A stretch of DNA of 33,135 nucleotides from Candidatus Saccharimonadota bacterium (GTDB taxonomy: Bacteria; Patescibacteriota; Saccharimonadia; Saccharimonadales; UBA4665), in assembly GCA_027357065.1 (NCBI GenBank), contig DAHVVZ010000021.1, forward strand, positions 1-33,135, given 5' to 3'. Positions 2,713-25,927 of the stretch are shown piece after piece; within the stretch, counting starts at the first letter, position 1; every line of letters starts with the position of its first letter. The position numbers and the translations under genes were made by a program. The notes under the pieces were generated by a model that was given only the letters and a program-made list of their open reading frames with translations, was not told the origin of the DNA and did no database searches.

Positions 2713-2970
2713 CTAGACTTCAAGACCTAGTTTTTCGCCTAACGCCTGATTGCTCGGCTCAACTAGAACACTACCATCTGAAAAGATAATCGTCGGAATG
2801 CTCTTATAGCCGTGATTAATCTCGCTGACTTCCTCGGCTGCTCCTGGGACTGCATCAATATCTATATAGTCGTAGGCTATCTTTTTACTATCTAAGAATT
2901 CACGGCTACGTTTACAGTCACCGCACCAGGGTGCGCCGTAAAGTTTGACAATTGAAATTAAATCGCTCAT
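2713..2970 (-). CDS. Glutaredoxin / mycoredoxin-like protein (CGDC active site)
   Basis: VKLYGAPWCGDCKRSREFLDSKKIAYDYIDID..KSIPTIIFSDGSVLVEPSNQAL; Mrx1-like length and TVPT/SIPT + DGS pattern; SD aggaga. Confidence 0.85.
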   Translation of the reverse strand: MSDLISIVKLYGAPWCGDCKRSREFLDSKKIAYDYIDIDAVPGAAEEVSEINHGYKSIPTIIFSDGSVLVEPSNQALGEKLGLEV

Positions 2971-2977
2971 CTGTCTC

Positions 2978-3703
2978 CTATCTAATATCTATTCTAACAA
3001 AAGATTCCGCGAGCTCATAACCGGCGCTTTGCCCGACTAGTTGGGCCATCTCTTTCACAAATTTAGCAGTATTCTTCATGTCACTAATCTGACTAGCATG
3101 CGCCTCTAGGGCTGCCAGCTTGCGGTCGAAGGTTTTAGTTATGTCGACATAGAAATTACCGTTATCGAAATTCGTTAGCAATACTGTCTTAGTTTTATGT
3201 GGCATGAAGCCTTCTTGGTACAGCTCAGGGAAGCTTAAGTGATCGCGGGCTAAGGGGAAGACTGCGTCTAGTGTTGCTTGTCCGGCCGCCCGGTGGTCGG
3301 GGTGATTAATAAAGCCGCGGCGGGCGGAGTAAAGCATCGACGGATCCATAGTGATTACGACGTCCGGTTTAATGGTACGAATAGCTTTTACGATCTCTTT
3401 TTTCAGATCCATAGTGACTTCCAGCATGCCGTCTGGGTAGCCAAGGAAACTAACGCTTTTTCCTTTAATTGCCTTAACTGCCGCTCTTTGCTCGGCTTCA
3501 CGAAACTTAACCAACTCTTCGGACGTAATTTCCGGATCGTCGCTACCCTTGCTTCCATCGGTAATAATTAGGTAATGCACCTCGGCGCCCTGACTTGCAA
3601 ACATCGACATCGTTCCTGATGCGCCAAAGTCTAAATCGTCGGGGTGAGCAGCCACTCCAAGTACAATCTTGGGTTTCAGTTCAGGAAATTCTAAAGCTGG
3701 CAT
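2978..3703 (-). CDS. PIG-L / LmbE family deacetylase (MshB/Mca/BshB-like)
   Basis: AAHPDDLDFGASGTM, FREAEQRAA, FLGYPDG, VITMDPS, NHPDHRAAGQATLDAVFPLARD; 8 nt from the mycoredoxin-like gene. Confidence 0.88.
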   Translation of the reverse strand: MPALEFPELKPKIVLGVAAHPDDLDFGASGTMSMFASQGAEVHYLIITDGSKGSDDPEITSEELVKFREAEQRAAVKAIKGKSVSFLGYPDGMLEVTMDLKKEIVKAIRTIKPDVVITMDPSMLYSARRGFINHPDHRAAGQATLDAVFPLARDHLSFPELYQEGFMPHKTKTVLLTNFDNGNFYVDITKTFDRKLAALEAHASQISDMKNTAKFVKEMAQLVGQSAGYELAESFVRIDIR

Positions 3704-3752
3704 TCACCTAGTGTAACATTTGCCGGTCGATAGACTATAATGCTTGGGATAG

Positions 3753-4919
3753 ATGCGCATTTACGATACTACAAAAAAACTTTACCGCCAGTTTAATCCA
3801 TCGCACACCGTCAAAATTTATGTTTGCGGCATCACCCCCTACGCTTCGGCGCACATGGGCCATATTTTTACCTTCATGACCTATGATCTTTTGCAGCGCC
3901 GGCTAGAGGATGGTGGCCATGAAGTACAAATGGTGCGCAATATTACTGATGTCGATGACCCGTTATACGTTAAGGCGGCAGAGCTTAATACCGACTATAT
4001 TAGTTTGGCTAAAACTGAGGTTGCTTCTTTTCATAAAGTACTGCATCTCTTAAATTTTCGGCCGACCTATGCTGAGCCAAGAGCCAGCCAGTACATTACC
4101 GAGATGGCTGACTCAGTTAAAATATTGCTCGATAAGGGGGATGCCTACTACGTTAATCAGGATGTCTACTTTGATACCTCTAAGTACCCGAATTACGGGA
4201 AGTTCTCAGGCTATAGCCCGCTGCTGTTAAACAATCTGCTTTGTGAACGCGGCGGCGATCCCTTTCTAGAAACCAAGCGTCAGCCGCTAGATTTTCTGCT
4301 TTGGAAGAATATTGCTGATCCGGAAGATGCCGCTCAATGGCAAACGGTACTCGGTACTGGACGCCCTGGATGGCATATCGAGTGTAGCGTAATGTCCGAG
4401 ATTGTGCTTGGCGATTCTTTTGATATTCACGGTGGCGGCACCGATTTAATATTTCCACACCATGAATCCGAGATTGCCCAGAATGTCGCCTTGCACGGTT
4501 CACCGCTAGCAGATCATTGGATGCATGTTGCGCCGATGATTATGGCCGGTGAAAAAATGAGCAAATCACTTGGAAATATGGTCTTTGCTATGGACTTGCT
4601 AAAAGTTTACGAGCCAGCGGTTATACGTTTGGCGCTGATGCATTACCACCACCACATTGGTGGTGAATGGAAGGATGATTTCCTTAATGACGCTCGGCAG
4701 TTGCTGGCCAGAGTTCGTGCTTCCGGCAAGCAGTGCGACGATCTAGCCGCCACTAAGCTTTTAGCAGAAGTCCGTGAGGCGCTCGATGATGACATTAATA
4801 CCTTGGAGGTCATTAACGTACTTCAAGCATTTGTTGGCCACGCAAGTAGGGATACTGCGGCTAGAGATCAAGAACACCCCTTAGTTAAGCAGACCCTGAA
4901 TCTTTTAGGCCTAGTCTAA
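3753..4919 (+). CDS. mshC: MshC-like cysteine:1D-myo-inositol 2-amino-2-deoxy-alpha-D-glucopyranoside ligase (CysRS paralogue)
   Basis: 388 aa; YVCGITPYASAHMGHIFTFMTYDLLQR, NITDVDDPLYVKA, PGWHIECSVMS, DIHGGGTDLIFPHHESEIAQ, EKMSKSLGN; shorter than typical CysRS, with TPY/DVDDP signatures of MshC rather than TVYD/DIDDK of CysRS. Confidence 0.8.
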   Translation: MRIYDTTKKLYRQFNPSHTVKIYVCGITPYASAHMGHIFTFMTYDLLQRRLEDGGHEVQMVRNITDVDDPLYVKAAELNTDYISLAKTEVASFHKVLHLLNFRPTYAEPRASQYITEMADSVKILLDKGDAYYVNQDVYFDTSKYPNYGKFSGYSPLLLNNLLCERGGDPFLETKRQPLDFLLWKNIADPEDAAQWQTVLGTGRPGWHIECSVMSEIVLGDSFDIHGGGTDLIFPHHESEIAQNVALHGSPLADHWMHVAPMIMAGEKMSKSLGNMVFAMDLLKVYEPAVIRLALMHYHHHIGGEWKDDFLNDARQLLARVRASGKQCDDLAATKLLAEVREALDDDINTLEVINVLQAFVGHASRDTAARDQEHPLVKQTLNLLGLV

Positions 4920-6866: not shown

Positions 6867-9800
6867 TTATTGAGTATTGAAAGTGAAGGTCCCTAAGCCA
6901 ACTTGAGTGTTAGCGCTCATTGCATATACCGTTGCGGTCCATGATCCTGCTGGCGGATTAAAACTAACGCTAGCCTGACCACTAGCATTTGTTTGCAGAT
7001 CAGGTTGCCAAAGAAGAGTGGCGCCAACTGCATTTGCGAAACTGGGTATTGCTCCCCCGCCACCGCCACAACGGCCACCGCCACTACCTACAGGAGATAG
7101 TGACGATGAAGAGGAGGTCATAATTTGCCTGGCTGCATAGAAGCTAGCAAGAATATCCGGATTAACTTGGTTTGATAGAGCAAAGGAATTGGCACTAATA
7201 ATGTCCACAATCAGGGAAGTTGGTACGGCCTGATTATTGCTATCGGTAGTCGTTATATTAAGTGTCGAAGATTGATTGGCACTAATACTACTCGGAGCCT
7301 GGATAGATATATTTAACGATTTATTCAGGGGAGCGACGTTGAATGGCACACCTTCAGAATGGTAGATTCCGTTTAAGAAGTAATTGAAAGTTAGAGTGAA
7401 TGATGGAGCAAGATTGGGGGTAACGGTAAACGAGAAAGTGTTATTTCCTTGATTTAGGTTTAGCATCGACGGATTGTAGATCCTTCCCCTGTCCATCGTA
7501 ACCATCGCCCTGATAGCTGCAGGTGAATTAATAGTTAGGTTCACGACATCGCCGACCGCTAGATTGCCGGAGCTACCAGTAACGTTTAGATCATAGGTAA
7601 ATGCTCCACTGGTATCTTCTTGCTCGGATAACGGATAGTTGGCTACCGAATAGTAAGTTTGTGCAACAATCGTATTTCCGTACTGATCTTTAAAACTGAC
7701 CTTTAAAACCATGCTATCGCCGTTGTTGGCTAGTTGCGAAGACGGGATATCTATAGCTCCTAAACCAGAAGAGTCTGTCTGAACTGAACCAGAGGCCAGT
7801 TGGTTTGAATTGGTGCTATCTACTAGAACATACTGCAAGGTCGTGTTTACGAGTGGCAGATTGTCTAGCTGGTAAGCATAGGCATCACTTACTAGATTGG
7901 CTCCCGTAGGCAGCATGCTGCGCGTCGGACCAAACACTATATAGCCGTTTCCTTGATGCACGATAGCAGAAGCACCCCCTGCAGCACCAACTCCGGTTTG
8001 GTTAGGGAGATTAGCTTGAACAGTTACAATCTGACTATTGCCGTCACTTGGTAACGATGCCGCATTAACCGTATAAGTAGCCACGCCAGCTGCATTCAGT
8101 TGAACAGTTGTCGGGCTACCGGCTAGCTCATTCCCACCGTAGCCGAAATTTGCTTGATTAGCAGCAAGATTATTCTCGTAATAATCTTGCGAAAAAGTGT
8201 GAACGTCGATAGTTTGATTTGCTAGTGGCTGGCCGCTAGAGTTTATTGCCTTAATTGTCGCAGTTATACTATCGCTCGGAAGATACGAAGACTTACTAAA
8301 AGCCACGCTTATGGTGTTTGCTTGGTTAGTTGTAGCGGCTATTGTAAAGCTGGCTACTGAAAGGTCATTATTCGGGTTTCCGCTAATTGATTTTACAAAT
8401 AGCTGATACTGATTAAAGACATCGCCTTGATTGAGCCAGCTAGCACTGGCCGTAAAGCTACCGTTAAATGTACCGTCAGCGTTAACCGGAACAGTTAGTG
8501 TCTCAACTGGAGACGGGTCACCTTTATATGTTCCGACATATAACTGAACACTGCCGCCATTCGGGTTTGTGTATTGGGCGTCATTATCTAGACGCACATA
8601 ACCGGCAAATTTTATGCTGTCTCCAACGCTGTAGGTTGGCTTATTGGTAATCGCATAAACCGCCTGGGCGGTACTTAAGTTCTGATCTACCCTGATGTCC
8701 CCTCCGCTATTTAGCACATTTACAGGCACTATCGCGGTCTCATTGTTGTATGTTGCTACGACGATGTCTAAATTCTGATTAAATCCGTAGCTTGCGGTCG
8801 TTAGTCCGTTGAGCGTTTGTTGACCAAGTAAATTAACCGCACCATTGAGGTTATAGAAAGAGGCGTTAGCAGTGACGTCTTGGGCGCTTGCATAAGATTG
8901 AGCATCAATAATCGTTTTTTGATCATCTTGACGCAGCAACAAACCGAAATTACTTATGTCTATCCATACAAAACCAAGTTCTTTGCCGCTACTATCGGTA
9001 GCCACGGCCACGTAAAGTCCGTCGGGTTGAGATACGACATAGTTTCCGCCGCTAGCTACGCTTTGACTGCTTGTAACTACGCTCAAACCCGATGTCGAAA
9101 CTGCTAAATCGCTAAACTGAGGTGTTGTATAGCCATCCAAAGTAGTATTTGCGTAAACTAACGAGCTGAGCATGGCAGATACTGAGCCCTTATACAGCGT
9201 GACGTTGGCAGAATTTCCGACTTGACCGCCAAACTCCAGACTAAAAGTCTCATTTTGGCCGGAAGCTAGAGAGGTAAGATTATCGATTAAGCCGTTTTGA
9301 TCCTGGAAAGCAACCGAATCGCTAGGAATTGACGTTGTAAAGCCGTACGCCGTGGCTACTCCTAATTGCGTCCCTTGGGTGTTCTGCAAAGTCGGGTTTA
9401 TCATGACCGAATACTTCACCCCCTTCGTTAAGGGCTCGGCTGGCGCAAAAACAACCTGAGTCGGTGAATCACCCTGCTTAAAAGTGCCGTTTAGGGTTGG
9501 CGTAATAAACATGTTGTTCAGTAGCTTATCGGCATTAATCGGCTCATTAAAATTCAGTGTCAAAAGAGATGATGTGTTGACATTCGTGGCATTATTACTC
9601 GGTGACGTCGATACTAATCTAAACTGAACTACTTTAGCCTTAAAACTTCCGACGGTAATATATTGATCGTGTGGACGTGCTAGTTTCCAATAGCTAAGAC
9701 CCCCGGCCAAAACGACTACAAGCAACAAAAAGACTACTATGAAAGATTTCGACTTAAATATCCGCTTCCACCACGAAGTCTTTTTGGCTTGATCGTTGCC

Positions 9801-10013
9801 AAAAGAAGCTGGAGCTACGGTTACTGGTGGCGTCGATACGATAATCTGATTAGTTTCTGTTGGATGCGAATCACTCTCATCCGTAGGGGTTGCTGAACTA
9901 GGATTGATTGTCGTGGCTTCTAAATTTTCGTTTGGGTCAGATGAAGCCTCTGAATTGCTGACTTCAGGATGCAACTCATCTATCTTAGCTTCTTCCTGGG
10001 GATGATCATCCAT
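6867..10013 (-). CDS. Membrane-anchored surface protein with Big_5-like and alpha-2-macroglobulin (MG)-like domains, no thioester domain
   Basis: N-terminal acidic/Ser-rich cytoplasmic tail, TM helix FIVVFLLLVVVLAGGLSYWKL, Big_5-like VSTSPSNNATNVNTSSLLTLNFNEPI, MG2-like KPTYSVGDSIKFAGYVR, bait-like SGGGRCGGGGG then LLWQPDLQTNASGQASVSFNPPAGSWTATVYAMSANTQVG. Confidence 0.75.
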   Translation of the reverse strand: MDDHPQEEAKIDELHPEVSNSEASSDPNENLEATTINPSSATPTDESDSHPTETNQIIVSTPPVTVAPASFGNDQAKKTSWWKRIFKSKSFIVVFLLLVVVLAGGLSYWKLARPHDQYITVGSFKAKVVQFRLVSTSPSNNATNVNTSSLLTLNFNEPINADKLLNNMFITPTLNGTFKQGDSPTQVVFAPAEPLTKGVKYSVMINPTLQNTQGTQLGVATAYGFTTSIPSDSVAFQDQNGLIDNLTSLASGQNETFSLEFGGQVGNSANVTLYKGSVSAMLSSLVYANTTLDGYTTPQFSDLAVSTSGLSVVTSSQSVASGGNYVVSQPDGLYVAVATDSSGKELGFVWIDISNFGLLLRQDDQKTIIDAQSYASAQDVTANASFYNLNGAVNLLGQQTLNGLTTASYGFNQNLDIVVATYNNETAIVPVNVLNSGGDIRVDQNLSTAQAVYAITNKPTYSVGDSIKFAGYVRLDNDAQYTNPNGGSVQLYVGTYKGDPSPVETLTVPVNADGTFNGSFTASASWLNQGDVFNQYQLFVKSISGNPNNDLSVASFTIAATTNQANTISVAFSKSSYLPSDSITATIKAINSSGQPLANQTIDVHTFSQDYYENNLAANQANFGYGGNELAGSPTTVQLNAAGVATYTVNAASLPSDGNSQIVTVQANLPNQTGVGAAGGASAIVHQGNGYIVFGPTRSMLPTGANLVSDAYAYQLDNLPLVNTTLQYVLVDSTNSNQLASGSVQTDSSGLGAIDIPSSQLANNGDSMVLKVSFKDQYGNTIVAQTYYSVANYPLSEQEDTSGAFTYDLNVTGSSGNLAVGDVVNLTINSPAAIRAMVTMDRGRIYNPSMLNLNQGNNTFSFTVTPNLAPSFTLTFNYFLNGIYHSEGVPFNVAPLNKSLNISIQAPSSISANQSSTLNITTTDSNNQAVPTSLIVDIISANSFALSNQVNPDILASFYAARQIMTSSSSSLSPVGSGGGRCGGGGGAIPSFANAVGATLLWQPDLQTNASGQASVSFNPPAGSWTATVYAMSANTQVGLGTFTFNTQ

Positions 10014-20181: not shown

Positions 20182-22575
20182 CTACTCTGACGTAAAGTCT
20201 GCCGGCCACTGCCATTCCTGAACCTCAGGCATGTCAACGCCGTGCTCATCTATATATGCCTGGTGCTCAACCAGCTTCTCCTGCATCTTCTCTTTTAGAG
20301 CCTCGGCCGCATCTCCCTGAAGACCGACCCTCTCAATAACATCCATGACTAAATGGAAGCGGTCCATGTCGTTACGCACCGTCATATCAAAAGCCGTAGT
20401 GATCGTTCCCTCTTCTTTGTAGCCACGGACATGCATGTTGCGGTTGGTGCGGCGATAAGTCAAACGGTGAATTACCCAAGGGTAACCGTGGAAAGCAAAA
20501 ATTATTTCTTTATCTTTAGTAAACAACAGGTCGTATTCAATGTCGGTCATACCGTGCGAGTGTTCGGTGTCCGGCTCTAGACGCATCAGATCGACGACAT
20601 TAATAACCCGAACTTTTAGATCCGGTAAGTTCTCGCGCAGGATTGATACCGCGGCCAGGGTTTCCAGCGTTGGAACGTCTCCGGCGCAAGCCATCACCAC
20701 GTCCGGCTCACTTCCCTGATCGTTGCTAGCCCAGTTCCAAACTCCAAGGCCTTTAGTACAATGATCGATCGCCTCATCTATCGATAGCCACTGTGGACTA
20801 TCGTGTTTTCCGGTAATTGTCAGGTTAATGTAATTACGGCTCTTCAAGCAGTGATCCATGACCGATAATAGGGTGTTCGCGTCCGGTGGCAGATAAATCC
20901 TGACCACTGAAGCTTTTTTATTTAGCATGTGGTCAATGAAGCCCGGATCCTGATGCGTAAAACCATTGTGATCTTGGCGCCAAACATGGGAAGTCAAGAG
21001 GTAGTTTAAAGAAGCAATCGAATGGCGCCAAGGCAGCTCAGCAGACATCTTAAGCCATTTGGCATGCTGGTTAACCATCGAGTCAACGATCCTTATGAAG
21101 GCCTCATAGCTATGAAAGATTCCATGTCGTCCGGTAAGTAAATAGCCTTCCAGCCAGCCTTCGTCCTGATGCTCGCTAAGCATTGAGTCAAATACCGCAC
21201 CGCTTTGGGCTAGAAACTCATCAGTCTCGCGTGTTCTGGCGTTCCACTGACGGTTAGTAACTTCAAATACAGCTTCAATGCGATTCGATATGGCTTCGTC
21301 CGGACCGAATATCCGGAAGTTATGCTGGCTCTCATTGAACTTAATGACATCGCGCAGGTATGGACCGAGGGCATGCATATTCCCAGCGTTGACGATACTG
21401 CGACTAGGGATCGGCACGGCATATTCCCTAAAGTCGGGGAGTCTTAGTTCTCTTAGAAAACCGCCGCCGTTACTGTGCGGATTGGCTCCCATGCGCTTTT
21501 CTCCGCTCGGCGCCAACTCTGCCAGCTCATGCACTAAGCGCCCCTGATTGTCGAACAATTCTTCCGGCTTATAACTTTTCAGCCAGTTCTCGAGCACAGC
21601 CACGTTTTGTGGGTGATCGGCATCTACCGGCAACGGCACCTGATGTGCCCGGAAGGTGTTTTCATTAGGCTTTCCGTCAACCATCTTCGGTCCGGTCCAG
21701 CCTTTTGGCGAATTAAGAACAATCATCGGCCAGCGCGGACGAGTAGAATCGTTATTGTCCCTAGCATTGGATTGGATACGCTGGATTTCACTAACTACCT
21801 CATTAAGCTTAGCTGCCATCAGCTGATGCATTAGCTGCGGATCGTCACCTTCAACAAAGTACGGCGTCCATCCGTATCCTCTTAGCAGCTGATCTAATTC
21901 TTCGTGTTCAATGCGGGCCAGTACAGTTGGGTTGCTGATCTTGTAGCCATTGAGGTGCAGAATTGGCAGTACCGCGCCATCGGTTTTGGGGTTTAAGAAC
22001 TTGTTAGAGTGCCAGGATGTCGCGAGCGGACCGGTCTCCGCTTCACCGTCGCCGATTACGCAGGCCACAATTAGGTCTGGATTATCGAAGACTGCACCGA
22101 ATGCATGGCTTAAGGAATAGCCGAGTTCTCCACCCTCATGCATCGAGCCGGGAACTTGCGGCGAAACATGGCTTGATAAACCGCCTGGGAAGGAGAACAT
22201 TTTAAATAGCCGCGCCATGCCGGCCTCATCTTGCGTTACTTCTGGGTAGACTTCGCTAAAAGTTCCTTCGAGATAGGTATTGCCGACTAAAGCCGGACCG
22301 CCGTGCCCGGGACCGGATATGTAGAGCATATTTAAGTCATATTCTTTAATCACCCGATTGAGGTGAGCATAGATAAAGTTTTGACCCGGGGTCGTGCCCC
22401 AGTGTCCAAGAAGCAGCTTTTTTACATGATCCAGCTCCAGCGGCTGGCGAAGTAGCGGGTTGGCGGCAAGATAAATTTGACCTACCGATAAATAGTTGGC
22501 GGCGCGCCAATAGGCGTCAATCTTACGCAGTGCTTCAGCATCAAGCGGATTTTCGTTGTCGTTATTCATTTGCAC
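20182..22575 (-). CDS. xfp: Xylulose-5-phosphate/fructose-6-phosphate phosphoketolase
   Basis: [81 protein letters not shown]. Confidence 0.97.
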
Positions 22576-23704
22576 CCCCTTTTTGAATTAGCTCTTTGGC
22601 TTGGCTTGCCATAACGTAGGCTTCGTCAGTCGGCAAGACATGGACACCAACACGGCTATCGTCTGCCGAAATTAGAAATTGATGATTCTGGTTACGCAAC
22701 CCATCTATTTTAATCCCCAGAAACTCAAGCTTGCTACAGACTCTTTCTCTGATTATAGAAGACTGCTCGCCAATACCGCCAGAGAAAATTAGTGAATCAA
22801 GGCCTTCAGTGGCACTGGATAGTGAACCTATCGCTCGTGCCACGTGGTAGCAGAACAAAGCCACCGCCTCGGCTGCGCGCTGATTGGTACTTTCATTATC
22901 CAGCAAGGTTTTCATGTCAGCCGATAGACCGGAGACGCCAAGCAAACCGGACTCGGTACTCATCATCTGATTGAATTGTTCAGGGCTAACTCCGTCTTTC
23001 TGGTAGAGATACCAGCCCAGTCCGGGATCTAAATCCCCACTGCGACTGCTCATAATAATGCCTGACGCGGGCGTAAAAGACATGGTCGTATCAACCGGTT
23101 GGCCCTTAACGGTAGCGGCCAGACTCGCGCCACTGCCCAAATGAGCATAGATAACCCGACCGTTCACGGCATCTTCGCCGGCCGCATCTCTAAAGGCTTG
23201 CTGCAGATAACTATAGGATAAGCCGTGAAAGCCATAGCGGCGCAGGGCGTCTACTCCCTGGTACTTCTGCGGTAAAGGCAATATCTGCGCCAAGCGTGGC
23301 AAATCCCTGAAAAAAGCCGTATCAAAACAAGCAATTTGTAAGGCCTGATCGAAGGACTGTTTGCATAAAGCAATTAGCTTTAAGGCAAGAGGAAGATGTT
23401 CTTGATCAAAGATAATATATTCTTCTAGATCACTGATAACTTCATCGGTAATCTTGACCGGCTCAATATATTTGGGACCTCCTTGAACCAGCCGGTGAGC
23501 AATGGCCACCAGCAACTCACCCTCTACTTCTTTAAGCAAACTGCTAAGAAAATTGTTCGCAGCTTCCTCAAATGATCTGTTAATTAGCGATTCTTCAATA
23601 TTGCTTAATTCATTTAGCGATGGCGAGTCGCCCTCCAGCGCATAAACAGTAGCTTTAATACTAGATGAGCCGGCGTTGATCGCAACAATTATTTTCCGCT
23701 TCAA
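22562..23704 (-). CDS. ackA: Acetate kinase (TTG start)
   Basis: [62 protein letters not shown]-like [10 protein letters not shown]; overlaps xfp start by 14 nt. Confidence 0.95.
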
Positions 23705-23846
23705 TTACGGCCGTCCTTAATTGTCATACTTTTTAAAACCACAAGTTTGAGACATTTTTCCCACCATAGATATTGCTATATCTAAGCATATGCTATGTGC
23801 GGCTGGGATTCAATTTGCTATGGTTTCGTCGATTTAAGATTTTTGC

Positions 23847-24704
23847 TTAGCGCTTGGAGTTAGCAGCTATTAGTAAGTTATTTACTTGCCGCGATAGGTC
23901 TTCGACAGTCGAACGGTTCTTTTTTCTGGCGATTGCCCAAATCGGGCGCGTCAGTGTCGGTGTCTTAATCTTAATCAGCTTAGCGCTAGCAATATCTTCT
24001 TTGACCATGTGGAATGGCAGCAAGGCCGTTCCTCTTCCGGAAAGCGCCATGTCTTTAAGCAGTTCGAGGCTGGTTGAGTAAAAAACAGGCTGAACATTTA
24101 AACCTAACCTCTTAAATTGTTTTGTGAAATGCGCAAAAGTTGTCGAATCGAGATTAAACGCCAGCCAATCGTCGATACCCCCATCCCGATCCTTGGTTTG
24201 CAGTTTCGGTGAACTGACAAATACGAACTTTTCGGTATGCAACCTTTTAACCTTAATGTCTTTGGGGACGTACCCGGGCTGACCAGTGATTAGTCCTAGA
24301 TCGATCTTATCGGTCAGTAAATCACTAATAATTTTTTTGGAGTTGTCGACCATAATTTCTAGCCCGCTTAGGATGTTAGAGTCTTTAGCCGAAGAATAAA
24401 GCAGATAGGCAATGCTATCGATAATCCCAATGTGCCGAGATTGGTGGGTAATTAGTTTACTAAGCTTCTTATGTAGTAGCGCGTCTTCTTTAAGAATCTT
24501 GGTGGCGCTCTCCAGTACCAGCTTTCCTTCTTTAGTTAGTTCAACATCATAGCGGTTACGCTCAAACAATTTAACGCCAAGAGAGCGCTCTAAGGAGCCG
24601 ATTGCAAGAGTTATTGCCGGCTGGGACTTACCGAGCGCTAGGGCGGCGGCAGAGAAGCTTTTATACTTCGCGACTTCATAAAATTTTTTGTACCGATGAT
24701 CCAT
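23847..24704 (-). CDS. LysR-type transcriptional regulator, start revised from track
   Basis: MDHRYKKFYEVAKYKSFSAAALALGKSQPAITLAIGSLERSLGVKLFERNRYDVELTKEG; TATACT-6-ATG. Confidence 0.9.
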   Translation of the reverse strand: MDHRYKKFYEVAKYKSFSAAALALGKSQPAITLAIGSLERSLGVKLFERNRYDVELTKEGKLVLESATKILKEDALLHKKLSKLITHQSRHIGIIDSIAYLLYSSAKDSNILSGLEIMVDNSKKIISDLLTDKIDLGLITGQPGYVPKDIKVKRLHTEKFVFVSSPKLQTKDRDGGIDDWLAFNLDSTTFAHFTKQFKRLGLNVQPVFYSTSLELLKDMALSGRGTALLPFHMVKEDIASAKLIKIKTPTLTRPIWAIARKKNRSTVEDLSRQVNNLLIAANSKR

Positions 24705-24742
24705 ATGATCAGTATATAGCATAGTTTTTATTTATTACAGAT

Positions 24743-24757
24743 ATAAGCTTGTCTTAT
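24743..24757. promoter_or_regulatory. Candidate LysR-type operator (T-N11-A) between LysR gene and ino1
   Basis: ATAAG-CTTGT-CTTAT, perfect 5-bp arms; T24744-N11-A24756; overlaps ino1 -35. Confidence 0.6.
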
Positions 24758-24777
24758 TTTAAAGTCTTTTGTAGAAT
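24749..24777 (+). promoter_or_regulatory. ino1 promoter, leaderless configuration
   Basis: TTGTCT (24749-24754) -17 bp- TAGAAT (24772-24777) -7 nt- ATG 24785. Confidence 0.6.
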
Positions 24778-24784
24778 GACTTTT

Positions 24785-25927
24785 ATGACAGCAAACGACA
24801 ATCAGGAAATAAAAATAGCAGTAATTGGAGCTGGAAACTGTTTTTCCGCTCTCTACCAGGGATTTAGCTTTTACAAAGACTCCGATCAGGATAATATTCC
24901 GGGCGTTATGTTCGCGGACATTGGCGGCTATCGTCCAAGTTCAATTAAGGTCGTAGCGGTTTATGATATCGATGCTAGAAAAGTTGGGCTTCCAACCGGC
25001 AAGGCGATATTCTCTAAACCAAACTGCGCCAGAGTTTTTGCTCCTAATGTGCCGGACGGTCCTATCGTTCAAATGGGTCAGCCACTCGATGGTTTTTCGG
25101 ACTACATGTTAAATCAGCCCGAGGATATCGGATTCAGGCTGTCAGATGCCAAGCCTGTAGATATCGTTAAGTCACTTAAAGAAAGTGGTGCCGACATATT
25201 AGTTAATTACCTTCCGGTTGGCTCACAAAAAGCTACCGAATTTTACGCTCAGGCCGCCATTGATGCCGGCGTGGCCTTTTTAAACTGCATACCGGTCTTT
25301 ATCGCTAGCGACCCAAAGTGGGAACAAAAGTTTATTGACGCCAAGCTACCGCTAATTGGCGACGACATGCGCTCCCAGCTCGGTGCCAGTGTTTTAAGTC
25401 AGGTATTACAAGAGCTAGCTTTTGACCGCGGAATGGTTGTAGATTTCCATCAGCAGATCAACATTGGCGGTAATACCGACTTTAACAATATGATGGTTCA
25501 ATCCAGACTCGAAAGTAAAAAGAAGAGTAAAGAAAATGTCATCCGGGCTCAAAACGACCTGCGCGGCATTGAAGTTCCAAAAGACAGCTTATTTGCCGGG
25601 CCCAGTACTTTCTTGCCGTATCTAAAGGACAACAAGGTAGCTTACTTTAATATTAGATTGCGCGGTTTCGGTGATAACCCAGTAACTATTGATGCTAAGC
25701 TATCGGTGCAGGATAGCGAGAACAGCGCCGGAGTAGTGATAGACGCTATTCGCTACCTAAAAGTCGCCCGTGAACTGGGTATTATTGGCGCACTAAGAGG
25801 CCCCAGTGCCTGGACGCAAAAGACCCCTCCGGAGCAGATGATGTACGCTGATGCTAAGGAAGAATGCGAAGCTCTGGCCAACCGTCGTCTTACCGCTTCA
25901 GTCAAGCGCCAGCCAAAAGCTAGCTAA
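24785..25927 (+). CDS. ino1: Myo-inositol-1-phosphate synthase (actinobacterial-type Ino1), start revised from track
   Basis: IAVIGAGNCFSALYQGFSFYKD, ILVNYLPVGSQKATEFYAQAAIDAGVAFLNCIPVFIASDPKW, PLIGDDMRSQLGASVLSQVL, NIGGNTDFNNMMVQSRLESKKKSK, NSAGVVIDAIRYLKVARE. Confidence 0.93.
   Translation: MTANDNQEIKIAVIGAGNCFSALYQGFSFYKDSDQDNIPGVMFADIGGYRPSSIKVVAVYDIDARKVGLPTGKAIFSKPNCARVFAPNVPDGPIVQMGQPLDGFSDYMLNQPEDIGFRLSDAKPVDIVKSLKESGADILVNYLPVGSQKATEFYAQAAIDAGVAFLNCIPVFIASDPKWEQKFIDAKLPLIGDDMRSQLGASVLSQVLQELAFDRGMVVDFHQQINIGGNTDFNNMMVQSRLESKKKSKENVIRAQNDLRGIEVPKDSLFAGPSTFLPYLKDNKVAYFNIRLRGFGDNPVTIDAKLSVQDSENSAGVVIDAIRYLKVARELGIIGALRGPSAWTQKTPPEQMMYADAKEECEALANRRLTASVKRQPKAS

Follow-up and report, generated by a model that had tools for sequence, protein, structure and literature searches.

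Mycothiol is considered a hallmark of actinobacteria. A three-gene locus on a contig of Candidatus Saccharimonadota bacterium raises the question of whether this lineage makes mycothiol or a related thiol as well. The contig (DAHVVZ010000021.1, assembly GCA_027357065.1), analysed over its whole length of 33,135 nucleotides and called the window in the following, is contig C32 of a genome of 599 kb that is 82% complete. An earlier note had described the locus as a candidate site of mycothiol biosynthesis in a CPR-like genome. The guess about the genome was right, because a near-identical locus (L050; 97% identity for MshC and 98% for PIG-L) belongs to 'Candidatus Saccharibacteria bacterium isolate clean1453'. 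The organism is a tiny, probably host-dependent bacterium.

Gene layout of the locus

All three predicted genes were confirmed as open reading frames, with the ligase divergent from the other two (Table 1), and the motifs quoted for the ligase (TPYxSAHMGH, NITDVDDPLY and KMSKSLGN) are all present in a reading frame of the stated length. A promoter-like match in the gap between ligase and deacetylase, 3713-3741(+), was at chance level. Comparison with the sibling genome that carries L050 gave dN/dS values of 0.11 for the ligase, 0.04 for PIG-L and 0.12 for the glutaredoxin, so that purifying selection acts on each of the three genes. Elsewhere in the window, two tandem F420-type luciferase-like oxidoreductases are encoded on the minus strand (748-1623 and 1640-2611), as is a protein of 1048 aa that combines an Ig-like domain with an alpha-2-macroglobulin bait-region domain (6867-10013).

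Table 1. Features of the locus, with positions in the window and the evidence for each assignment
Feature	Position	Strand	Evidence
MshC-family cysteine:amino-sugar ligase, 388 aa	3753..4919	+	ORF, profile models, tree, predicted fold, residue mapping
PIG-L/LmbE family N-deacetylase, 241 aa, motifs AHPDD and HPDH (metal)	2978..3703	-	Pfam, comparison with solved structures
Glutaredoxin, 85 aa, WCGDC, mycoredoxin-like	2713..2970	-	profile models, comparison with sibling genomes
Intergenic gap between divergent deacetylase and ligase, 49 bp	3704..3752		ORF positions

The ligase belongs to the MshC family

In profile searches the ligase scored higher with the MshC model TIGR03447 (353 bits, cut-off 485) than with the cysS model TIGR00435 (323 bits, cut-off 340), both scores falling short of the curated cut-offs. 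The NCBIfam equivalog cut-off of 485 bits is narrow, because homologues of Acidimicrobiia and Thermobaculum from MshA-bearing genomes also miss it (399-440 bits). A maximum-likelihood tree that included reference sequences of MshC and of CysRS separated the two families at 100/100, with the 12 Saccharibacteria ligases on the MshC side, where they form a single clade (100/100). Grouping the ligases with the CysRS of their own lineage was rejected by an AU test (p-AU 0.0036).

The AlphaFold model of the protein (pLDDT 94.8) found its best PDB match in Mycobacterium smegmatis MshC (8hfn; TM 0.92, rmsd 2.2 Å), while the rmsd to the leading bacterial CysRS structures was 3.3-4.1 Å. The Cys-adenylate and zinc site of the M. 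smegmatis enzyme comprises C43, C231, H256, T46, T83, Y48 and the HIGH and KMSKS motifs (PMC9736012). Mapping from this structure placed the zinc ligands of the ligase at C25, C211 and H236 (plus E240), and T28, Y30, T65, a HIGH-like HMGH (34-37) and KMSKS (268-272) are kept as well (PMC9736012). Every catalytic residue named in that study is identical in the ligase, including H37 of HMGH. The MshC-specific GITPY, RGG and W306 are also retained, and at CysRS-diagnostic sites the CysRS residue is almost never present in 13 Saccharibacteria proteins of the ligase type. The C-terminal domain of CysRS, the tRNA-anticodon region, is missing from the ligase, and a distinct CysRS of 463 aa is encoded elsewhere in the same genome.

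Taken together, the 388-aa protein is, as the earlier note had proposed, a true MshC-family ligase and not a CysRS; it neither groups within CysRS nor is it the only candidate for that function in the genome. With known MshC (TIGR03447; M. smegmatis 3C8Z/8HFM; Acidimicrobiia) it shares fold, Cys-adenylate site, length, the GITPY and RGG motifs and clade. It differs in that its model score stays below the cut-off, MshA, MshD and MshB proper are missing from its genome, and its partner is a divergently oriented PIG-L resembling diacetylchitobiose deacetylase. The catalytic domain and the activation of cysteine are common to CysRS, from which the ligase differs by its separate clade, the missing C-terminal region and the lack of CysRS-diagnostic residues.

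Among the reference loci, nine of the Acidimicrobiia type (L053, L055, L056, L059, L061, L069, L075, L081, L082) carry mshC followed in tandem by a true cysS, possibly a relic of the duplication that produced MshC. A record named Bifidobacterium breve (L063) contains an MshC of the Acidimicrobiia type and is probably a mislabelled or contaminated MAG.

Distribution and probable origin of the ligase

Among 298 genomes of the class, an MshC-type second gene is confined to the window's own family, in which 18 of 95 genomes, spread over 10 genera, carry the ligase. All 18 also encode the PIG-L of the window, adjacent and divergent in 16 of them. The two exceptions are a ligase at a contig edge and a genome with the pair on different contigs (G097, 98% complete). 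By comparison, PIG-L occurs in 36 of the 77 ligase-negative family genomes (p=9e-6, uncorrected for kinship).

A placement of the ligase among Actinomycetota was favoured, the branch leaving out Nitriliruptoria and Thermobaculum having received 96/93 support; the alternative as sister to all other MshC was not rejected by AU tests (p-AU 0.087 and 0.095). The nearest relatives outside the CPR are actinobacterial, and a search among phages returned similarity at the level of CysRS and nothing closer. In the PIG-L tree, ligase-positive and ligase-negative genomes are intermixed, with 10 state changes, which fits a ligase that was acquired early, in one event, and has been lost repeatedly. The source of this single gain was probably an MshC of the Actinomycetota type, and the family probably lost the gene multiple times afterwards.

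The partner deacetylase and the glutaredoxin

The deacetylase was recognized by the PIG-L model of Pfam with 106.8 bits. Its nearest solved relatives within the PIG-L/LmbE superfamily, diacetylchitobiose deacetylase and LnmX (124 and 103 bits, identity of 35% or less), are the closest both by sequence and by fold (TM about 0.77-0.80), but differ from it in that the window's protein is encoded next to a cysteine ligase. The deacetylases of the mycothiol and bacillithiol pathways, MshB/Mca and BshB, belong to the same superfamily, share the metal motifs and act one step before cysteine ligation. The window's PIG-L, however, remains far below the cut-off for MshB (27-51 bits, 50.6 by hmmscan; cut-off 224) as well as that for BshB1 (93 bits; cut-off 182.5), and its fold matches MshB with a TM of only about 0.6. 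Its affinity is thus with diacetylchitobiose deacetylase more than with MshB. Of the proposed MshB part, the pairing of a PIG-L deacetylase with the ligase stands, whereas the assignment to MshB itself is not supported.

In the 36 genomes with PIG-L and no ligase, the gene often lies beside the oxidative pentose-phosphate genes pgl, gnd and zwf and a MarP-type protease, and it must therefore have a function that is independent of the ligase. One genome (G286) has two copies: the first adjoins the ligase (72% identity; L224, G286:C12:20001-30000), and the second belongs to the pgl-gnd-zwf island (59%; L039, G286:C4). In isolate DFJ.1 (L052:9072-9853) the PIG-L adjoining the ligase is split across two frames, by a frameshift, a sequencing error or decay. 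Two actinobacterial MAGs (L064:872-4848 and L128:270-5569) carry, upstream of mshC at a distance of about 1.5-3.4 kb, a PIG-L with 41-45% identity to that of the window; genes for an RsgA-like GTPase and an F420:NADP oxidoreductase-like protein separate the two.

For the small glutaredoxin, the mycoredoxin model TIGR02200 was the best match and Mycoredoxin-1 (Rv3198A) the closest solved structure (57 bits). The score of 76.7 bits is under the model's cut-off of 89.5, and close copies exist in ligase-negative genomes; the likeness to mycoredoxin thus held up, the membership did not. In ligase-negative siblings, the corresponding Grx domain is fused to a thioredoxin reductase of 401 aa in total (65% identity over 72 aa), as in a locus of the same genus (L226:1489-2694), where the domain forms the N-terminus and a second small glutaredoxin precedes; many family genomes encode further Grx-domain ORFs of comparable length. 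Since relatives devoid of MshC have this subfamily fused to thioredoxin reductase, it need not depend on mycothiol, and in contrast to Mycoredoxin-1 the fusions imply an electron donor other than mycothiol. This weakens the glutaredoxin as proof of mycothiol use. A position next to PIG-L is restricted to genomes of the window's genus (G000, G333, G286, G329, G336), and strong copies of the gene were detected in 10 of 18 ligase-positive and 8 of 77 ligase-negative genomes (p=9e-5, uncorrected for kinship).

Other parts of the mycothiol pathway

Ten MshC-bearing genomes, nine of Actinomycetota and one of Thermobaculum, served as controls in the search for MshA. They yielded 332-433 bits in 10/10 cases, whereas no match in the 95 family genomes exceeded 133 bits, and the top one is a generic GT4 common to ligase-negative relatives. 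The GT4 of the window's genome (C11:3101-4309) reaches 103 bits. An MshA-like gene was found in none of the 18 ligase-positive genomes, eight of which are 94-98% complete. MshB proper scored about 30 bits in the search of ligase-positive Saccharibacteria genomes (controls: 154-236 bits in 10/10), and MshD gave no convincing match, with at most 35 bits among 13 ligase-positive genomes against 130-245 bits in 4/4 controls. A dedicated Mtr was not detected either, with generic matches of 191-200 bits in two genomes, although the controls for this enzyme are weak and vary from 203 to 570 bits.

The window also contains an Ino1-like ORF (24749-25927; 335 bits, cut-off 638), which had been counted as a pathway part. 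It is present in 7 of 18 genomes with and 21 of 77 without the ligase (p=0.39), and in 3/9 versus 15/46 when only genomes at least 90% complete are considered. We therefore rejected Ino1 as a part of the pathway. Its neighbours are a LysR regulator and an operon of phosphoketolase and acetate kinase (20182-25927 in total).

Thus, neither mshA nor mshD was found in the genome, and the 'four of the expected parts' of the earlier note shrink to one family-level match and one generic deacetylase. Among the refuting observations that the note had named, the lack of an MshA homologue is the one that did turn up. The full pathway was rejected as the default reading, because the ligase-positive genomes searched lack MshA, MshB proper and MshD while the controls have them. 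The claim that the lineage makes mycothiol is not supported, and what we retain is the narrower one of a cysteine:amino-sugar ligase. With the other mycothiol genes missing, the product is probably a different or host-supplied cysteine-sugar compound and not mycothiol itself; a truncated thiol such as Cys-GlcN-X is possible. Among the controls, the Thermobaculum genome (G353, Chloroflexota; L125) holds, besides MshC, an MshA of 381 bits and a PIG-L resembling MshB (154 bits), which suggests a mycothiol pathway outside Actinomycetota.

A proposed pathway and its alternatives

We propose, with a probability of roughly 60%, that a horizontally acquired cysteine:amino-sugar ligase and a GlcNAc deacetylase together form a Cys-glucosamine compound on an acceptor that is perhaps host-derived. 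PIG-L would strip the acetyl group from a GlcNAc-containing small molecule and free its 2-amino group. The ligase, with its intact site, would activate cysteine with ATP on the zinc site to Cys-AMP and, judging from clade and chemistry, transfer it onto the freed amine to give a Cys-glucosamine thiol. The acceptor would not stem from the known mycothiol route, because MshA and MshD are missing; it may be imported from the host or the environment (e.g. GlcNAc-Ins or GlcN-Ins of an actinobacterial host) or be a different GlcNAc derivative, and the product would miss the acetyl group that is added last in mycothiol. Reduction by the thioredoxin-reductase/glutaredoxin system is plausible, and NADPH might be provided by the oxidative pentose-phosphate genes located beside PIG-L in relatives. 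Family membership, the intact site for cysteine activation, the missing anticodon region, the separate CysRS and the divergent pairing with the deacetylase are computational results, whereas substrate, product and redox use are what we infer. The boldest reading, to which we give somewhat less than even odds, is that in Saccharibacteria the MshC-type ligase and the chitobiose-deacetylase-like PIG-L make a new low-molecular-weight thiol, with cysteinyl-glucosamine on a non-inositol GlcNAc glycoside or on host GlcN-inositol.

A special case of the proposed pathway would keep inositol in the product: the epibiont imports GlcNAc-Ins, GlcN-Ins or mycothiol from its host, and the ligase rebuilds Cys-GlcN-Ins. 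In its favour, actinobacteria are the hosts of cultivated Saccharibacteria, the tree places the ligase among the MshC of Actinomycetota, and the late ligation step was retained with the deacetylase alone. Against these points, the PIG-L is neither MshB- nor Mca-like and a transporter consistently linked to the locus was not found, which leaves about one chance in four for such a salvage. Only slightly less credit is due to the idea that ligase and PIG-L could act on unrelated amines, the ligase on a peptide, lipid or secondary metabolite, with the pairing reflecting mere chromosomal neighbourhood. Paralogs of class-I synthetases have been predicted as amide ligases for other products (PMC2922099), a precedent to which the PIG-L genes of ligase-free genomes, many of them in synteny with pgl, gnd, zwf and MarP, can be added. 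Yet the two genes remain adjacent and divergent in 16/18 genomes, even off the pentose-phosphate island (G000, G286, G207, G158), their chemistry is consecutive, and the ligase keeps GITPY, RGG and W306.

The remaining readings fare worse. Complete mycothiol, or Cys-GlcN-Ins made de novo, would require that MshA and MshD are highly diverged or unassembled and that Ino1 supplies inositol phosphate. The incomplete genome, the Ino1-like gene in the window and the 103 bits of the GT4 speak for it, but the same GT4 has the same score in ligase-negative relatives, far from the controls, MshA-like genes are lacking even in the eight ligase-positive genomes of 94-98% completeness, neither MshD, MshB proper nor, with weak controls, a dedicated Mtr was matched, and Ino1 is absent from 6/9 ligase-positive genomes of at least 90% completeness; we consider it largely refuted and very improbable. 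Still less probable is that the protein is a truncated paralog of CysRS with a remaining role on tRNA or in the quality control of translation. Although the fold alignment shows 35-36% identity to structures of CysRS and the cysS model gives 323 bits, this reading was rejected on the MshC clade and its diagnostic residues, the AU test against an origin from the lineage's own CysRS, the missing C-terminal region and the separate full-length CysRS. Contamination by an actinobacterium during assembly or binning, to which the actinobacterial affinity of the ligase might point, was rejected with near certainty, given 18 genomes from 10 genera, contigs of up to 244 kb, a conserved, family-wide PIG-L partner and a ligase clade of its own (100/100).

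Meaning of the locus

In a search of openly licensed papers, neither MshC nor mycothiol was reported from Saccharibacteria, which by itself does not prove novelty, and none described a thiol system based on cysteine and a sugar in CPR. The enzyme family of the ligase is known, but this divergent member occurs in a lineage and a genetic setting where it was not expected, and its product could be new. An MshC homologue alone does not equal mycothiol production; a conserved MshC-type ligase with a deacetylase, but without the entry and exit enzymes of the pathway, makes this family a testable case for a new thiol or for an ultra-small bacterium that relies in part on thiol precursors of its host.
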